From positions 1 through 58,333 of the forward strand of contig JAFVVO010000003.1 in assembly GCA_017502165.1 (NCBI GenBank): a DNA stretch of 58,333 nucleotides, in the 5' to 3' direction. Shown piece by piece: positions 24,781-32,417 of the stretch; the stretch's first letter is position 1; the number at the start of each line of letters is the position of its first letter. The stretch is from Clostridia bacterium (lineage in GTDB: Bacteria; Bacillota; Clostridia; Christensenellales; QALW01). Below the pieces are notes generated by a model. The model was not told the origin of the DNA, made no database searches, and saw only the letters and a list, made by a program, of their open reading frames with translations. The translations under genes were made by a program, and so were the position numbers.

Positions 24781-24815
24781 ATTGTTTTCTAATAACAAAA
24801 AAGTAATAATGCGGA

Positions 24816-24846
24816 CGCTCTATGAAATTTTCATAGAGTGTTTTTT
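24816..24846 (+). terminator. intrinsic terminator
   Basis: CGCTCTATGA (24816-24825) pairs with TCATAGAGTG (24831-24840), followed by T6. Confidence 0.85.
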
Positions 24847-24867: not shown

Positions 24868-24896
24868 TTGACAACGGGCTGAATATAGTATAAAAT
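24868..24896 (+). promoter_or_regulatory. SigA promoter of the five-gene TIR/ParA/SpeD-like operon
   Basis: Perfect -35 TTGACA (24868-24873), 17-nt spacer, -10 TAAAAT (24891-24896). Confidence 0.85.
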
Positions 24897-24949
24897 AATA
24901 TATATTATATTAAAATGCCGAAATATTGCTAAAAGAAAGGAGGGCGCTT

Positions 24950-26107
24950 GTGAAAGGATACTATACCAAGGAAGAGGTTGTTCAGGAAGGCTTTTTGTTT
25001 ATCAGCTACAAGCACGAGGACAGCAGTGAAACGGTTTACGATACGCTTAACTATCTTTTTGAGCAGGGTGTCAGGTTTTGGTACGATGCTGATTTGGGCG
25101 TAGGAGAGAAGTGGACCGAAATTGCGGAAGGGCTTATTAAGCATCCTAACTGCCGAGGCGTTGTGTTTTTTAACAGTATACCGTCTTTTACAAGTGAGCC
25201 GGTTCACAAGGAGCGTGGCTTTACCCTTGAAAAACAGAAAAAATGCAGAGAAGAAAAAACTCCCTTTTGCATCTTTCCCGTAAACATTGGTCAGCCTTCC
25301 GTTCTTGAGCTAATTAAAGCCGTATTTTATGAAATTAACGATTTAACAAGGCTTAAGAGGGAGTTTCCCATCGAATATATTAAGAATATAACCACTCTGT
25401 TTGACAGCGAAATTATTTACTGTTATGCTGATCCGAATAATAAAGAGGGGTATCGGAGCGACCTTTGCAATATAATTGCCAAAAGTCTTCCTCAGGTTAT
25501 CAACAAAGACGTTGTAAGAATGAAAAAGTTTGAGGATTCGGGTATTCGGCAGGACGGCAAGCGTGCGTACTTCGGAAAATGTGCCGATAAGCAAACGGCG
25601 GACGTGCCTGCGTCACTTTTAAGTAAGGACGGAAGAATTTCCTTAAACGGCAACAATTACATTGTTCAAAACGGAAGCGCTTATACGATTAAGAAAATTC
25701 CGTGGCGTCTGCTTTACTGCAAGGACGATAAATGCGTGCTTATTTCCGAGGAACCCGTAGGCGTAAGAACGGGTGGCGCAGAGCTGAAGCAATGGTTGAC
25801 GGATTCCTTCTTCCCGTTAGCCTTTACCGAGGAGGAAAAGACTCAGGTAGAGGAAATAAGGCTGGCTACCTTGGAGGACGTACAGAAGGCTAAATCAGAG
25901 GAAAAGCTTGTGTTTTTACAATCGGAAATTAATCCCGATGGTCATTGGTGGATAGATTCTATGGCTCACGGGGCGCTTCAAAAGGTTGTAAAAAAGGACG
26001 GAAGGATTTTTGCCGCAGGATATAATATGCGGACGAAAAAATCCGGTGTCAGACCGATAATAGTGGTAAACAATTCGACATTAACGAAAATTATAGAAAA
26101 TTATTGA
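24950..26107 (+). CDS. TIR-DUF6273 fusion protein (gene 1 of the five-gene system)
   Basis: A 385-aa protein. Residues 14-130 are a TIR domain: FLFISYKHEDSSETVYDTLN, GVRFWYDADLGVGEKWTEIA and VVFFNSIPSF, with E88 (SEPVHKERGF) or E94 as candidate catalytic glutamate. The C-terminal third is DUF6273-like: IPWRLLYCKDDKCVLISEEP, LKQWLTDSFFPLAFTEEEK, HWWIDSMAHG and GVRPIIVV. TIR domains in bacterial defence often hydrolyse NAD+. DUF6273 resembles lectin-like or formylglycine-generating folds used for ligand sensing. GTG 24950 follows AAAGGAGGG; the open frame begins earlier at TTG 24926. It heads an operon of five genes. Confidence 0.82.
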   Translation: MKGYYTKEEVVQEGFLFISYKHEDSSETVYDTLNYLFEQGVRFWYDADLGVGEKWTEIAEGLIKHPNCRGVVFFNSIPSFTSEPVHKERGFTLEKQKKCREEKTPFCIFPVNIGQPSVLELIKAVFYEINDLTRLKREFPIEYIKNITTLFDSEIIYCYADPNNKEGYRSDLCNIIAKSLPQVINKDVVRMKKFEDSGIRQDGKRAYFGKCADKQTADVPASLLSKDGRISLNGNNYIVQNGSAYTIKKIPWRLLYCKDDKCVLISEEPVGVRTGGAELKQWLTDSFFPLAFTEEEKTQVEEIRLATLEDVQKAKSEEKLVFLQSEINPDGHWWIDSMAHGALQKVVKKDGRIFAAGYNMRTKKSGVRPIIVVNNSTLTKIIENY

Positions 26108-26128: not shown

Positions 26129-28306
26129 ATGGCAAACGCAAGATTAAAATACGGCGCACTTTATGATGTTATTGACAGCTCGGTAAGTGAGGAAAAGGAA
26201 TCTATTTTCCACACCTATATTGCAAAGGAAGATACGGGCAAACGAATTTTTAAGGAGCTTTATACGAGATTTCAGGCTGATTCCTCAAAGGGTCACGTGG
26301 GCTTCTATATGGACGACGGAAAGCAGATCGGTATTCTTTCACAATGTCAATCCATGCAGGCTCTTATGCTTTTAGCTTCTGAATTCGGCCTTGATTTCGA
26401 CGATGAGCACATTATTGATGCGGAAAAATCAAACCTTACCATTCGTCAGATTATGGATATGGTTATTGAGGATATTATCGAGAGAATTACCGAAGGAACT
26501 GAGGAAAATCAGTACCGTTTTGACGCTTCACCTTACGAAAAGAAGCTTTTTACCGTTCAGTATTCCAACGTTGACACCATTACCTGGGTTGTAACTTCAT
26601 TCCTGCTTGCGCTTAAGTATCACGCAACCATCGGTGAAACTTGTAAATGGGAAAAGCAGCTGGTTGACGTTATTTCTTACGGTCTTCGTTATTTTAACGA
26701 TTCTTTTATTGAAAGTGAGGCGGAGGGCACATCCAATTCACTTAATATCGGTTGGAACTTTACCAAGGACTGTCAGGAGCCTTCGCTTTACTATTCGTTT
26801 ACCGTTTGCGAATGCTTTGTTGACTTCTTTACCACCTTTGAAGAGTATTTATCGTATAAGGAGGCCGACAGAGATTTCAAAATGTACGGTCTTCCCGTTG
26901 ACAAGAACCTTGCCGCTAACTTTAAGAAGCATCAGCAGACCTTTGAAAAGCTGACCAAGGAGGGCGACCGCGGATACGACAAGAAGACCGGCAAGAAGCT
27001 TGCTCAGTATGATGAGTATAATGAGCTTAAAATGCGTTATTGTGAAATCAATAACGGTCTTGACAGCATTGAAAACACCTTCTACGGCGAGCTTGAAGCA
27101 AAATGTAAGCGCGTAGCAAAGGAAATCTGGAGACTTGCCAAGGGCGAGCTGGCAGATGCATTCTTCTATAACGACCTTCATACCACTATTTCTGAAGATG
27201 AAATCGGCATGGCAACCACCTCCGACGCATTGTTTAACACCGTTTATATTATCAATATTCTTCTTGACTCAGGTCTTGACGAGGATTTCAAAAAGGATAT
27301 TGAAATTGCAAGAAGCGCCGGCGACAACGAGGCGGCGGCAGATGCAGAGCGTGAATACAACAACTTGTTTGAATCCTGCCAGATGGCAGTTCAGAAGGCG
27401 TTCAGAACTTATGAAAAGCTTCAGAACAACGGAAAGGAATACATTGTTGACCAGTTCCTTGTAGGTTTCAACGAAAACTTTACTGTTCACAGAAATCTTA
27501 TTAAAGATCTGCGAAAGCGCCGTATGAGAGTTTTCTCCTTGATGCCTCTTCTGATTCATACAAACAACGTTATAAGTGAATATCTTATCCAGTATCCTCA
27601 GATCAATATGAGAAAATATCTTGGATATATTCTTGAAAACCGTTTTGAAGAAAATAACAAGAGTAAGTGGATTTGGGAAAAGGACGGCTATTTCAGTTGC
27701 AGTAACTACTACTATATTTCCGCTCTCGGTGAGTTCTACGCTTATTACGAAAAGTATGAAAGCAAGTTCATTGATAACTACGTTCGTAACGAAGAATACG
27801 AAGCAAAAATTATTAAGCAGACAGAAGAAATGCTTCTTTCTTCGTCAGGTAAATTAGGTGAGCTGGAGCGTGAAATTCAGCGTCGCGACCTGGAAATCAA
27901 GCATCTGAACGAATTGATTCAGAACGTTTCCAAGCCCATTGAGGACGCGGTTATTGAGGTAACCACCGAAAAAATTAAGCAGCTTTTCCCCGAAATGCTT
28001 TGCGATTTCCTTCGTAATGCGGCTTCTGGCCTGACGGTTTCTGCAATAGATAACACTGAGCTTCAGGATGAGCATACGGAATTTGCAGATGCTCTCGGAG
28101 ATTTGCTCGTGGCGGTTATCAGCAAGCAGATTTACGACGCTATCCGTCCTGCAACGCTTTCTAAGGACGAGCAGAACATTAAGTACCGTCAGCTTGAAAA
28201 GCATATCAGAGACGATTTCAGCGAGCTGTTGTTCAACTACGTATATGCAGTTAAGAACAGTCCCATTCACAGCAGTCAGCTTTTTGAATCAAACAAAGGA
28301 GAATAA
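26129..28306 (+). CDS. 725-aa helical protein, possible alpha/alpha-toroid with coiled coil (gene 2)
   Basis: No named family is recognised. The N-terminal ~300 residues have repeating helical hairpins (QSMQALMLLASEFGLDFDDE, NVDTITWVVTSFLLALKYH, LNIGWNFTKDCQEPSLYYSF) of the kind seen in alpha/alpha-toroids such as terpenoid-cyclase-like domains; this is a visual impression only. A coiled coil covers about residues 566-595 (GELEREIQRRDLEIKHLNEL). The C-terminus is helical and acidic. ATG 26129 has GGAG 8-9 nt upstream. It follows the TIR gene by 21 nt and precedes the ATPase by 6 nt, so co-expression is certain within the limits of sequence. Confidence 0.6.
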   Translation: MANARLKYGALYDVIDSSVSEEKESIFHTYIAKEDTGKRIFKELYTRFQADSSKGHVGFYMDDGKQIGILSQCQSMQALMLLASEFGLDFDDEHIIDAEKSNLTIRQIMDMVIEDIIERITEGTEENQYRFDASPYEKKLFTVQYSNVDTITWVVTSFLLALKYHATIGETCKWEKQLVDVISYGLRYFNDSFIESEAEGTSNSLNIGWNFTKDCQEPSLYYSFTVCECFVDFFTTFEEYLSYKEADRDFKMYGLPVDKNLAANFKKHQQTFEKLTKEGDRGYDKKTGKKLAQYDEYNELKMRYCEINNGLDSIENTFYGELEAKCKRVAKEIWRLAKGELADAFFYNDLHTTISEDEIGMATTSDALFNTVYIINILLDSGLDEDFKKDIEIARSAGDNEAAADAEREYNNLFESCQMAVQKAFRTYEKLQNNGKEYIVDQFLVGFNENFTVHRNLIKDLRKRRMRVFSLMPLLIHTNNVISEYLIQYPQINMRKYLGYILENRFEENNKSKWIWEKDGYFSCSNYYYISALGEFYAYYEKYESKFIDNYVRNEEYEAKIIKQTEEMLLSSSGKLGELEREIQRRDLEIKHLNELIQNVSKPIEDAVIEVTTEKIKQLFPEMLCDFLRNAASGLTVSAIDNTELQDEHTEFADALGDLLVAVISKQIYDAIRPATLSKDEQNIKYRQLEKHIRDDFSELLFNYVYAVKNSPIHSSQLFESNKGE

Positions 28307-28312
28307 GCTTAA

Positions 28313-29248
28313 ATGAAAACAATATCATTCTTTTCTTATAAGGGCGGCGCAGGAAGAAGCACCTTAGCTTATAACGTTATTCCGATTCTTGCAAAGGATT
28401 ATTTCCGTCCTACTGCAGAAAGTCCCATAATCGTGGTTGATACTGACGTTGATAGCTGCGGTATGTCATATTTGCTTGGCGCTGAGGAGCAGGTTACTGA
28501 TAATAACTGTATTCAGTATTTGCTAGGCAACCCCTTCAGCACAAGAAGATGCGACAGTATCAGCGAGCATCCCTTCCTTAAAAATCTGATTCCCGTGGGA
28601 AATGCTTACGGATACCCCGATAACGACGCCATTTTGCTTTTACCTGCAAAGGATAACAAAAATATCAGCAAGGACGGCAAAAATAACTATGCCGAAGCGG
28701 GCGGACTTTCCTTTATGGAATCAATGAAGGGCTTTTTAGACGTTTGCGACGAGTATTTTGACGTTCCTGCGGTTATATTCGACTCTTCCGTTGGTAATAC
28801 GGCTTTAGCAAACATTTCCAACGAAATGGCTAGCATTATCGTTTGCGTAATGCGTCCTACAATTCAGTTTGTAAACGGTACAAGACGTTACCTTGTTGAC
28901 TTTGAAGAGGGCGAAAAATTCAGTGGCGGCGGAAAGGAAATCGTTCTCGTTCCCAACGTTATTCCCGATAAGGAAATAACCATCGGCAACGCGGTTTATC
29001 CCGATGCGGCTATTGATAAAATTATCAATACCTTCGTTAACTCAAACGTTTTCAAAAACAGTCCCAATAACACGTACCATATGGATATGCTTGACCCGGA
29101 GGAGTTTGGTATTCCTATGGTTGACAGCTTTATGTACGTTGAGGGTCAATTACTTAACAAAAAGAATTATTACGGTAACGAGGAGTTAGTTCTCGGCAGA
29201 TACAGAAAGCTTGCCAGAATTATTAACGAAATAGATTCCGAATATTGA
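28313..29248 (+). CDS. ParA/MinD-like P-loop ATPase with KGGAGRST motif (gene 3)
   Basis: A 311-aa deviant-Walker ATPase. The P-loop is FFSYKGGAGRSTLAYNV: K10 is the signature lysine, but the canonical lysine before Ser/Thr is Arg15. Walker A' region VVDTDVDSCGMSYLLG (about 42-57), switch-type segment VIFDSSVGNTALANISNEMA and IVCVMRPTIQFVNGTRRYL follow the MinD/ParA order, and VLVPNVIPD ends the fold. Such ATPases position complexes or gate assembly on membranes or nucleoid. The RBS is AAAGGAG at the end of gene 2. No ParB-like partner is in this operon. Confidence 0.82.
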   Translation: MKTISFFSYKGGAGRSTLAYNVIPILAKDYFRPTAESPIIVVDTDVDSCGMSYLLGAEEQVTDNNCIQYLLGNPFSTRRCDSISEHPFLKNLIPVGNAYGYPDNDAILLLPAKDNKNISKDGKNNYAEAGGLSFMESMKGFLDVCDEYFDVPAVIFDSSVGNTALANISNEMASIIVCVMRPTIQFVNGTRRYLVDFEEGEKFSGGGKEIVLVPNVIPDKEITIGNAVYPDAAIDKIINTFVNSNVFKNSPNNTYHMDMLDPEEFGIPMVDSFMYVEGQLLNKKNYYGNEELVLGRYRKLARIINEIDSEY

Positions 29249-29263
29249 TGGAGGAAAGACGGT

Positions 29264-31555
29264 ATGTCTGAAAATAATTTCGGAGAAAAGCAACAGCTTA
29301 TAAGCAAAATTGAAAAGTTTTTCGACAGAAGCGTCAGCAAGAACGTTATGCGTTACGTTTTAGGCGGAACGAAGGTTTCCCGCTACGTAACCAGATTGCG
29401 CGATTATCCTGCGTACTTTAATAACGTTTTCTCTCTTGCGTTTATTTTTGCATACGGTTGCTTGCGATATGATAACGATAGCGACCGTCCTCAGAATTTA
29501 GAATTTACTAAGCAAAATTCACTCAGAATTGTTAACAGTCTGAAAAAAGCATATATTCAGTATCCCGTAAGCACGGAGCTGGTTCAGTTCGTTTTATCTG
29601 ATATTCAGTTTGAAATGCTTCAGGGCGGAGACGAGAAGATTTACGAGGTTTTCGGCAAAATATGTAATTTCAGAAGCCTTAAATATTCCATTTCAAAATA
29701 TTATAAGGTTATTTATGAATGGAGAGGCGCCCCTTCAAGATTCAAGATGAATGAGGAAGAAATCCTTGAGATGTTCTACAACTTGCTTAAGTGTATGACC
29801 TTCTTAAGAAATTACGATATTGTTCTTGAAGACGGTTTATGCTCCTTTGTAGATAAAGAAGCGGCGGAATTTGACGATTTTGATGCACCGTATTCCTTGA
29901 TTCCTGCGTATCACATTGTTCATTTCCCTGAAGAATATATGAACGTGTTTTCGCTTTATTCGGCAGAAATGCACGAGACAACAGAGGGAAAGTATCTTAA
30001 CCTTACATACGTTACCGGTGACGGCTTTAATTCGCTTCGTTATACGGTGGGTGAGAGCAAGCCTGATGACGTTGAGGAGGAAGCGTTTATCGAAGCTTCA
30101 GCAAACGATTACTATTACGAGATTTTTGGTGAGGATTGGGAATATACCACCGAGCAAAAGGCAAAAAAGAACAATAGCTTTATTGACCAGGTGCACACCA
30201 TCAATTATAAGTACATAAAAAACCTTGCTCTTGCAATTTCTGACGCCATAAGCATTAACCGCGGTACAAAGGGAGCTTTGTATTCACAGTTCCGCAAGCG
30301 GTATAAGGATATTTTTAGGGACGTTGAGGAGCGGCTTGAGGCTGAGGCGGATATTGAATGCATAAAGCTTGATTGGGATAGCATTATAGTTATGCTTTTG
30401 ATTGAATCAAGCCCCACAAGCGTTCTTGAAACCTTGTTTAAGGAAAACAGACAGACCTTTATTACCGTTGCGGAAAATCTTTGCAAGCGTATTGATAATC
30501 CCGATTTGCCCTTCTATTCAAAGAAGCCTGACGAGTTGGACACAATGGTTAATAATATTATTCAGACGAAGCTGGTTATGGGTGAGACCGGCGGTATAGG
30601 AATGATTTCCAAAAATCAGACCAGCCAACGCTTGCGTGCCCGCGCGGAAGCCTTGCTTATAGTTTCGTCGCTTTCGTTTATTCACGAGCAGAATATGGAG
30701 GAAAAGACCATCTGCGCCGGAAATATTTATGATAACATTTCCTTTCTGAATAAAATAGTAAGTGAATATTCTGCCGAGCAAAAAATTAAGTATACCGGTA
30801 CTATTTTAGGTGAAACCTTTCGACATTTAGTATGTTTCTACAAGGGCGTGCTTGCTTATGGTGAAAAGAAGGCTGAATACGATGCGGCATATTATAATAG
30901 CTTCTTTTCTGATGCGCAAATAGCTTCCGAACAGAAAAAAATGCAAAAGGATTTCTTTTCTGCCGCAAAGGCTGAGGCGGAATTCCTTAAGCAGTATAGC
31001 TCGGATGACCTTGATGGCATTAAGAATATGATTCAGCGGTTTATCGGCTTGTGCGAGGACTGCAGCTCATCAATTAACAATGCAGGGGCGTACAGTCATA
31101 AGATTTTTGCCGTTTTAGGTAAATACGATTTACTTAATTTATCCGAGTTCAGAAACTACGTTGAGCTGTTTTTGAATAAATATAACGAAATCAACGAGGA
31201 TAACGTTGATAAGTGGATTGCCTTTACCCTTGATACCTTAAAATATTTGCGAAACGGAAGCTTCAAAAACACTGAAGGCTCCTTCTTTAAGGCGGTTTAT
31301 CCCTTTGCGGCAACGTACAATAAGGGCAATGAAAACTATGACGGTCACCGCACGGTTACCTTCAAGCTTAATTTTGACGTTGACGGTGATGAGAAGGCGG
31401 ACGAGGCAGAATATATTAACGTTTTAACAGAGTTTTCATATAACACTACCAACGTTTTCTATTGCTTGCCAAACGTTCTTCGGGCTAACAAAAGATGGTG
31501 GATTGACCCTCTTTTAATAAGCTTTAAGGAATTTAATGATATTTTTGAGGAGTAA
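29264..31555 (+). CDS. 763-aa protein of unknown function (gene 4)
   Basis: A large, mostly helical protein without a recognised domain. Helical segments dominate, for example RIVNSLKKAYIQYPVSTELV and INYKYIKNLALAISDAISIN. The C-terminus has an acidic β-type segment with FDVDGDEKADEAEYI, which resembles a Ca-binding loop but may be coincidental, followed by NVFYCLPNVLRANKRWWIDP. No signal peptide or membrane helix is seen. ATG 29264 follows GGAGGAAAGACGGT, 15 nt after the ATPase stop. It is part of the same operon and could be the scaffold or sensor of the system; this is inference. Confidence 0.6.
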   Translation: MSENNFGEKQQLISKIEKFFDRSVSKNVMRYVLGGTKVSRYVTRLRDYPAYFNNVFSLAFIFAYGCLRYDNDSDRPQNLEFTKQNSLRIVNSLKKAYIQYPVSTELVQFVLSDIQFEMLQGGDEKIYEVFGKICNFRSLKYSISKYYKVIYEWRGAPSRFKMNEEEILEMFYNLLKCMTFLRNYDIVLEDGLCSFVDKEAAEFDDFDAPYSLIPAYHIVHFPEEYMNVFSLYSAEMHETTEGKYLNLTYVTGDGFNSLRYTVGESKPDDVEEEAFIEASANDYYYEIFGEDWEYTTEQKAKKNNSFIDQVHTINYKYIKNLALAISDAISINRGTKGALYSQFRKRYKDIFRDVEERLEAEADIECIKLDWDSIIVMLLIESSPTSVLETLFKENRQTFITVAENLCKRIDNPDLPFYSKKPDELDTMVNNIIQTKLVMGETGGIGMISKNQTSQRLRARAEALLIVSSLSFIHEQNMEEKTICAGNIYDNISFLNKIVSEYSAEQKIKYTGTILGETFRHLVCFYKGVLAYGEKKAEYDAAYYNSFFSDAQIASEQKKMQKDFFSAAKAEAEFLKQYSSDDLDGIKNMIQRFIGLCEDCSSSINNAGAYSHKIFAVLGKYDLLNLSEFRNYVELFLNKYNEINEDNVDKWIAFTLDTLKYLRNGSFKNTEGSFFKAVYPFAATYNKGNENYDGHRTVTFKLNFDVDGDEKADEAEYINVLTEFSYNTTNVFYCLPNVLRANKRWWIDPLLISFKEFNDIFEE

Positions 31556-31558
31556 TTA

Positions 31559-32362
31559 ATGATTGCTAACAGACATTATATGCTTGATGCATACGGTTGT
31601 GTTTTCGAGCAGGCAAACAGTATTTTAGGTGTTAACGATTTACTGGTGCAGATAACTAACGAATTGGATATGGAGCCGATTATGCCTCCGTTTTTGATTC
31701 CCTTTTATTACTGTAAGGACGCGGAAGACGTGGGTGTAAGCGCCTATTGTATATGCGCTAACGGTTCACACGTTACCATTCACACCTTTCCGTACCGTTC
31801 CTGCTATTTCGTAGATATTCTGACCGATAAATTCTTTACCGAGGCGGACGTTACAAATAAAATCTGCAACCAGATTTATGCATCATCCATAACCACCAAC
31901 GTGGTGGACCGTCGTGAGTTTGACGGATTTGACGGTCTTATTGACCAGGGTAATGACTTTGGACCTCACTATATGATTACCATTGAGGATATTGATATTA
32001 CCTTTGAGGATATGTTCTCCTGGCTTGACCAGATTGCGCCCAAAATTAATATGCAGGCTATTTCGAGACCTTACGTTATTTTCGATAAGGTAAATAATCC
32101 TTCGTATATTTCCGGCGTGCTGGTGGTGGCACAAAGCCATATAGCCTTTCACTATTCCATTGAGGAAAGAAAGGCTAACCTTGATATTTTCTCCTGCAGT
32201 TTCCTCGAAAACGGACTGGTAGAGGAAATTTTGCATCAGTCCTTTGGCGGAAAAGAGCGTATGAGCTTGTTCGCAAGGGGAAGTAAGCACCGTATCCAGT
32301 GCCAGAACAGGTCAAGGCAGTCCCGTATCGAAAAGGAAGAGGCCTGGAGAAGTAATATATAA
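31559..32362 (+). CDS. duplicated S-adenosylmethionine-decarboxylase-like protein (gene 5)
   Basis: A 267-aa protein with two half domains resembling SpeD. N-half: ANGSHVTIHTFPYRSCYFVD (67-86), aligning with the SpeD core SESHxTIHTWPE. Ser70 is at the pyruvoyl serine, but Gly replaces Glu before it and the catalytic Cys position is not Cys (ILTDK). C-half: VVAQSHIAFHYSIEERKANL and DIFSCSF (189-215), with Ser193, His198 and Cys213 in the right order. SpeD enzymes self-cleave before that Ser to form a pyruvoyl cofactor and decarboxylate AdoMet. Whether either half does so is unknown. The ATG lies 3 nt after the gene 4 stop. A basic tail (KHRIQCQNRSRQSR) ends the protein. Confidence 0.65.
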   Translation: MIANRHYMLDAYGCVFEQANSILGVNDLLVQITNELDMEPIMPPFLIPFYYCKDAEDVGVSAYCICANGSHVTIHTFPYRSCYFVDILTDKFFTEADVTNKICNQIYASSITTNVVDRREFDGFDGLIDQGNDFGPHYMITIEDIDITFEDMFSWLDQIAPKINMQAISRPYVIFDKVNNPSYISGVLVVAQSHIAFHYSIEERKANLDIFSCSFLENGLVEEILHQSFGGKERMSLFARGSKHRIQCQNRSRQSRIEKEEAWRSNI

Positions 32363-32378
32363 AAAATAAAAATTGTTC

Positions 32379-32417
32379 ATTTGGGCATCTTCGGTTTTGA
32401 AGATGCCCCAAATTATT
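32379..32417 (+). terminator. terminator of the five-gene operon
   Basis: ATTTGGGCATCTTC (32379-32392) pairs with GAAGATGCCCCAAAT (one bulged C), with a GGTTTT loop and a TATTTT tail. Confidence 0.85.

Follow-up and report, generated by a model that had tools for sequence, protein, structure and literature searches.

What does a SpeD-like protein with two halves do at the end of an operon that opens with a TIR gene? The question arises in the window, the whole stretch of DNA analysed here, which is a contig of 58,333 bases from a 1.8 Mb genome of 96% completeness; in a scan of GTDB contigs, its nearest relatives were gut Clostridia assemblies. The first-pass annotation had placed a tandem SpeD within a TIR/ParA operon, and this arrangement was confirmed. 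Five genes on the plus strand encode a TIR protein, protein B, a ParA-like ATPase, protein D and, in last position, the tandem SpeD (tSpeD). They are separated by intergenic gaps of 21, 6, 15 and 3 nt, the last of which places the tSpeD start codon 3 nt past the end of the protein D gene, and two terminator-like hairpins bracket the operon (Table 1).

Table 1. Positions of the operon genes, flanking signals and tSpeD residues in the window
Feature	Position	Strand	Basis or remark
Terminator-like hairpin, closes the gene upstream of TIR	24813..24843	+	Consensus match only
Promoter-like TTGACA-17-TAAAAT, ahead of the TIR gene	24868..24896	+	Consensus match only
TIR protein, TIR_2 domain and C-terminal extension	24926..26107	+	Pfam, E = 1e-7
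Protein B, 725 aa, alpha/alpha-toroid and C-terminal coiled coil, cassette core	26129..28306	+	AlphaFold, VIA
ParA/MinD-like ATPase, Walker A YKGGAGRS (KGGVGR-variant type)	28313..29248	+	NCBIfam NF047398 below cut-off; motif
Protein D, 763 aa, cassette part	29264..31555	+	No Pfam or NCBIfam family matched; position in cassettes
tSpeD, 267 aa; pyruvoyl-dependent decarboxylase predicted to have one active site, substrate probably L-arginine	31559..32362	+	ATG at 31559, stop at 32362; Pfam, AlphaFold, fold matches, 79-row alignment
N-terminal SpeD-like half, about aa 5-120; predicted to give Ser61 and His75 to the active site, without a cofactor Cys of its own (Asp90)	31571..31918	+	Alignment, profile-profile match, VIA
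Ser61 codon, equivalent of T. maritima Ser55	31739..31741	+	Invariant, 79/79
Ser70 codon, cofactor-serine position of the N half	31766..31768	+	Gly in 72/79 homologues
His75 codon, equivalent of T. maritima His68	31781..31783	+	Invariant, 79/79
C-terminal SpeD-like half, about aa 133-245; bears the predicted pyruvoyl cofactor	31955..32293	+	Pfam, alignment, AlphaFold, profile-profile match
Ser193 codon, predicted self-cleavage site and pyruvoyl precursor	32135..32137	+	Invariant, 79/79
Cys213 codon, predicted proton donor	32195..32197	+	Invariant, 79/79
Terminator-like hairpin, operon end	32383..32408	+	21 nt past the tSpeD stop; consensus match only

The TIR_2 match of the first protein exceeded the Pfam cut-off, and its catalytic glutamate (Glu96, numbered from 24926) is invariant in 38 TIR proteins from this and related operons, hereafter termed cassettes. 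The true start of the TIR gene is likely the GTG at 24950, which is preceded by the ribosome-binding-like AAGGAGGG. By eye, the C-terminal part of the protein resembles DUF6273-type domains, and two cassette TIR proteins match DUF6273 weakly. Protein B generated no hit in Pfam. Its AlphaFold model (pLDDT 86.5) contains a toroid at about aa 30-543 that gave VIA Z scores of about 18-20 against toroid folds and is akin to terpenoid cyclases, GH76 and complement TED domains; as this fold is common to many enzymes and complement domains, no function was read from it. The ATPase aligned with most of the domain of NCBIfam NF047398 (KGGVGR-motif variant AAA ATPase) at 54.6 bits, below the cut-off of 90 (E = 1.7e-14), and is assigned on this match as a divergent relative of that family; the KGG[AS][GC]R motif is retained in cassette ATPases. 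Protein D generated no match in Pfam or NCBIfam.

Pfam detected AdoMet_dc in two stretches of tSpeD (77.6 bits against a cut-off of 25, E = 1.1e-21), both halves again exceeded the cut-off in a separate search with the AdoMet_dc profile, and the profiles of the N and C halves matched each other in hhalign with a probability of 97.5% (E = 6e-12). The AlphaFold model built from the 79-row alignment (pLDDT 88, pTM 0.87) is a class-2-like pseudo-dimer, predicted with confidence, and has the SpeD fold in both halves. In comparisons with Foldseek and VIA-align, T. maritima SpeD was superposed on a tSpeD half (the N half) with a Z score of 15.6 and an rmsd of 2.6 over 113 residues, and human AdoMetDC S68A matched model residues 1-239 nearly end to end (Z 14.6, rmsd 3.2, 200 aligned residues), while unrelated structures stayed below a Z score of 8. 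The double Pfam match and the match between the two half profiles argue that the duplication is not accidental, and with the fold results they rule out chance likeness of the halves. By fold and by profile, tSpeD belongs to the AdoMet decarboxylase/SpeD superfamily, and the description of two SpeD-like halves, one degenerate, stands.

In T. maritima and human AdoMet decarboxylases, the active site combines the cofactor Ser and the Cys of one half with a Ser and a His of its partner. As read from an alignment of 79 homologues, from which all conservation counts were taken, tSpeD repeats this arrangement inside a single chain. The motifs SHVTIHTFP from Ser70 and SHIAFHY from Ser193, together with Cys213, lie where the first-pass annotation had located them, and the first half does lack the catalytic Cys, as it had stated: Cys213 is matched in the N half by Asp90 in the window and by a non-Cys residue in most other homologues. 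The symmetry of the two SH motifs, on which the annotation had drawn, is real in the window but not typical of the family. Ser at position 70 is restricted to the window and six close relatives, so that the paired motifs are mostly a trait of one lineage. The N half is degenerate, with its own cofactor site lost, whereas the C half keeps its Ser-His and Cys residues across homologues. With Ser61, His75, Ser193 and Cys213 conserved and no intact site left in the N half, the protein is predicted not to be dead but to work through one composite pyruvoyl site. We consider tSpeD very probably an active single-site pyruvoyl enzyme, and the suggestion of a cryptic decarboxylase gives way here, as conservation of the composite site points to a working one.

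The genes around tSpeD in its relatives bear on what such an enzyme would act on. A scan of GTDB contigs yielded 141 encoding contigs, and gene partners were analysed in the best 80 of the 141. At 49 of these 80, and in the window, tSpeD lies behind a core of protein B and the KGGxGR ATPase, nearly always with protein D, which stands between the ATPase and tSpeD in 47 of 50 cassettes and has a short form in some. In the window clade, which comprises 19 loci with the window counted, every contig that extends far enough shows a TIR gene in front. A second clade of 11 loci also has TIR in front and carries a radical SAM protein behind, plus a PEP-synthase-like protein in most loci; across this whole clade, the gene directly behind tSpeD is of the MSMEG_0568-like radical SAM type, usually accompanied by the PEP-synthase-like gene (for example, L053:10774-13985).

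Elsewhere among the best 80 of 141 relatives, the first cassette gene encodes agmatine deiminase at 16 loci, ten of which have a TIR gene, usually with LRR repeats, further in front and six of which have none. Agmatinase takes the first position at three loci and a TIR protein in most of the remaining cassettes. Another 23 relatives, mostly from Bacilli and Mycoplasmatota, lie outside cassettes, directly behind an agmatinase gene. These agmatinase-tSpeD pairs (L063-L108, for example L064:9101-10804) resemble a two-gene pathway from arginine to putrescine with a fused, half-dead SpeD. The partners matched PAD_porph (E = 6e-91) and the Arginase family (E = 7e-71); their best NCBIfam names were agmatine deiminase and agmatinase, the latter exceeding its cut-off in L064, and both retain their catalytic motifs. 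Two loci depart from these patterns: at L034:9947-10786, a tSpeD of the window clade has no cassette around it and follows a TIR gene with LRR-like repeats and a gene for a CitMHS-type transporter; at L105:8258-10801, a tSpeD-like region forms part of an open frame of 848 aa in a deltaproteobacterium, which may be a fusion.

Pairwise distances between tSpeDs track those of protein B (r 0.86) and of the ParA-like ATPase (r 0.80), with correlations as high in 0 of 2000 permutations; tSpeD is therefore not a passenger of the cassette. The end of the cassette is exchangeable. A search with protein B found further matches without tSpeD, among them three loci (L193:4339-4971, L194:3871-4500 and L197:12439-13044) where a GNAT acetyltransferase occupies the tSpeD slot after TIR, B, ATPase and D. 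At three others (L195:7450-8547, L196:6236-7336 and L198:9882-10982), the order is radical SAM, B, ATPase, large protein and TIR; the radical SAM protein of L195 is of the PapB-like SPASM type, and that of L198 was assigned by position only. At two B-containing loci without tSpeD, TIR is fused to a large protein. In a tree of the ATPases, cassettes of the GNAT and radical SAM types cluster with the window clade at a support of 92, which is below the trusted level. A single origin of all cassette tSpeDs was not rejected by the AU test (p 0.26), and repeated recruitment of tSpeD is thus not claimed; nor is a dN/dS value, as the window and its nearest relatives have diverged to saturation in dS.

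Residue conservation among the relatives bears on whether tSpeD catalyses at all. It could instead be a pseudoenzyme, a sensor of a small ligand that regulates the TIR/ATPase complex without catalysis, a role that the degenerate half and an operon of signalling-like proteins would suit and for which the trypanosome prozyme, a regulatory dead AdoMetDC, is a precedent. However, none of the four composite-site residues varies among the 79 proteins, the agmatinase-linked ones included, and the window clade has lost almost none of the positions kept by the enzymes presumed active; this reading is unlikely. Among 45 positions conserved to at least 95% in the agmatine-linked proteins, the window clade differs only at Leu66, Ile190, Gly70, Gly69 and Ile195, with changes at Gly70 in 6 of 19, at Gly69 in two rows and at Ile195 in one. 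As nearly every conserved position is kept, the window clade probably carries out the same reaction as the agmatine-linked proteins, and the conserved composite site favours a working arginine decarboxylase over a cryptic enzyme or a ligand sensor.

Relatives of tSpeD are paired with agmatine deiminase in 16 cases and with agmatinase in 26; the window's genome has no such pairing. Where cassette genomes encode agmatine deiminase or agmatinase, the cassette copy is the only one, and in 16 cassette genomes tSpeD is the sole SpeD-family protein. Because two unrelated agmatine-using enzymes share one slot, an arginine decarboxylase is the simplest partner that fits both, and from this gene context the substrate is probably arginine and the product agmatine, with ornithine as a much less likely alternative. 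SpeD homologues that decarboxylate arginine or ornithine exist, the arginine ones having been traced by the same reasoning from gene partners, and SpeD fusions with a dead half are also known (PMC10407285). In the window's lineage the substrate could have shifted, since this TIR-only lineage has no agmatine gene.

Could tSpeD be an ordinary AdoMet decarboxylase, or a protein that binds AdoMet, in an odd place, supplying decarboxylated AdoMet for aminopropyl transfer? Its best NCBIfam name is adenosylmethionine decarboxylase (TIGR03330), at 57.6 bits against an equivalog cut-off of 75.65, and the fused SpeDs with one dead half described in the literature are AdoMet decarboxylases (PMC10407285). 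Against this, spermidine synthase (PF01564) was absent from 15 of the 16 cassette genomes, and neither it nor agmatinase or agmatine deiminase was found in the 96% complete genome that hosts the window. In addition, the Glu that binds ribose in T. maritima SpeD is matched by Glu in just 4 of the 79 homologues, and the gene partners of the relatives are agmatine enzymes. These observations also count against the annotation's proposal of AdoMet as ligand or substrate; the missing spermidine synthase and the gene partners disfavour an AdoMetDC for spermidine synthesis, and we consider an AdoMet-related role quite improbable.

Ornithine was weighed on similar grounds. SpeD-family fusions with ODC activity have been documented (PMC10407285, where Gln, Thr, Phe and Tyr serve as the four residues diagnostic of SpeDC) and the arginase family spans arginases and agmatinases, so tSpeD might be an ornithine decarboxylase of the SpeDC type whose arginase-family partner produces ornithine. 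In L064, however, the partner scored 180.3 bits with the agmatinase model (cut-off 174.3) and 128.2 with the arginase model (cut-off 227.6), and the alternative occupant of the same slot, agmatine deiminase, does not use ornithine. We therefore give ornithine only a small chance and retain arginine as the probable substrate.

Whether the TIR-B-ParA-D-tSpeD cassette serves defence is, in our assessment, about an even question. A conflict-system role is favoured by the patchy distribution (tSpeD occurs in 16 of 396 genomes of the order and is absent from four sampled members of the genus and family), by TIR chemistry and by module swapping. PADLOC gave only weak matches of the operon, to TIR and ParA domains of other systems, with none for tSpeD, B or D; no PADLOC model fits the operon, and identity with a known anti-phage system was rejected. 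The location lends this role no support, because a PADLOC scan of flanks (104 cassette-flanking proteins against 104 from agmatinase-linked loci) found known defence genes to be no more abundant at cassettes, no member of the tSpeD family was found in plasmid records, and matches in viral sequences were distant. A first viral scan for tSpeD found nothing, and a further search returned two phage records and IMG/VR contigs with distant SpeD matches only, mostly at 25-40% identity.

A less probable alternative, also compatible with an arginine decarboxylase, is that the cassette is a polyamine-homeostasis or stress operon in which TIR regulates NAD or signals the polyamine state. Agmatine enzymes do recur in the cassette, and the flanks show no defence-gene excess, as this reading would have it. 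It sits less well with the patchy occurrence of the cassette, with an end gene that can be exchanged for an acetyltransferase and other versions that carry a radical SAM enzyme, and with the presence of TIR proteins retaining the catalytic Glu in 38 cassettes.

Among known enzymes, the pyruvoyl-dependent L-arginine decarboxylases that arose from AdoMetDC (SpeDA; Li et al. 2023, PMC10407285) share with tSpeD the SpeD fold, the retained Ser, His and Cys, an adjacent agmatinase or agmatine deiminase gene (for tSpeD, in relatives) and a genome without spermidine synthase. The SpeDA proteins of that study are single-domain enzymes of class 1b, whereas in tSpeD two halves are fused, the N half being dead, and the gene lies in a TIR/ATPase cassette. 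The SpeD-SpeDC fusion of Victivallis vadensis and the eukaryotic class 2 AdoMetDCs resemble tSpeD in having two halves per chain, one of which self-cleaves (as predicted for tSpeD). Their cofactor is in the N half and the C half is degraded (PMC10407285); in tSpeD the order is reversed, with the cofactor Ser and the Cys in the C half. Thus tSpeD shows the fused halves of class 2 AdoMetDCs and not their N-half cofactor. These enzymes also differ from what is predicted for tSpeD in using AdoMet as substrate and in their link to spermidine synthesis.

The cassette shares with Thoeris and other TIR NADase systems a TIR_2 domain with an invariant catalytic Glu, but it has protein B, the KGGxGR ATPase, protein D and tSpeD in place of ThsA, CBASS or another known partner. 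It resembles the MinD/ParA-like conflict systems of Kaur et al. (2020, PMC7159879) in its MinD/ParA-like ATPase, modular operon, variable enzymes and TIR domains. Those systems are centred on vWA-MoxR or on GTPases and their MinD/ParA domains are predicted to be inactive (PMC7159879), whereas the window cassette keeps the KGGxGR Walker A and no vWA or MoxR was recognised in it. A CesT/Tir operon with an AdoMet decarboxylase (PMC11237479) was set aside, as it concerns a different Tir and a different operon.

Taken together, the explanation that we favour, though with reserve, is that tSpeD is an intramolecular SpeD dimer with one site, most likely converting L-arginine to agmatine, and is integral to a modular TIR cassette that is probably a conflict system. 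The fused pair would fold as an intramolecular dimer with a single working active site; the chain would cleave itself before Ser193, which would become the pyruvoyl cofactor, and Cys213 would act as the proton donor. The degenerate N half would supply Ser61 and His75, an arrangement known from eukaryotic AdoMetDC, where the two halves play the opposite parts. The enzyme would most likely decarboxylate L-arginine to agmatine. Other cassette versions add agmatine deiminase or agmatinase, or have a GNAT acetyltransferase instead of tSpeD. As the genome has no known agmatine consumer, we infer that the TIR system makes use of agmatine or of the depletion of arginine; this system is probably a conflict system resembling phage defence, with the TIR protein as its presumed NAD-consuming effector.

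A more specific and considerably more speculative version, to which we assign a low probability, is that the cassette is a TIR immune system equipped with an arginine decarboxylase of its own and uses agmatine as a built-in ligand or co-substrate. For example, TIR might join ADP-ribose from NAD to agmatine as a signal, or B, the ATPase and D might sense agmatine to release the TIR effector, with the agmatine deiminase or agmatinase of sister systems tuning the signal or switching it off.

In the literature on SpeD or agmatine with TIR or anti-phage systems, no description of such a cassette was found. The tSpeD protein is the mirror image of the fused SpeD with one dead half from which the eukaryotic enzyme has been proposed to descend, and its single composite site converting arginine to agmatine is a concrete prediction. 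A pyruvoyl decarboxylase in a TIR/ATPase cassette, with slots held by agmatine deiminase, agmatinase, an acetyltransferase or a radical SAM protein, suggests small-amine chemistry in a bacterial TIR system, and an arginine-decarboxylating tSpeD, if this is true, would link polyamine chemistry to that system.
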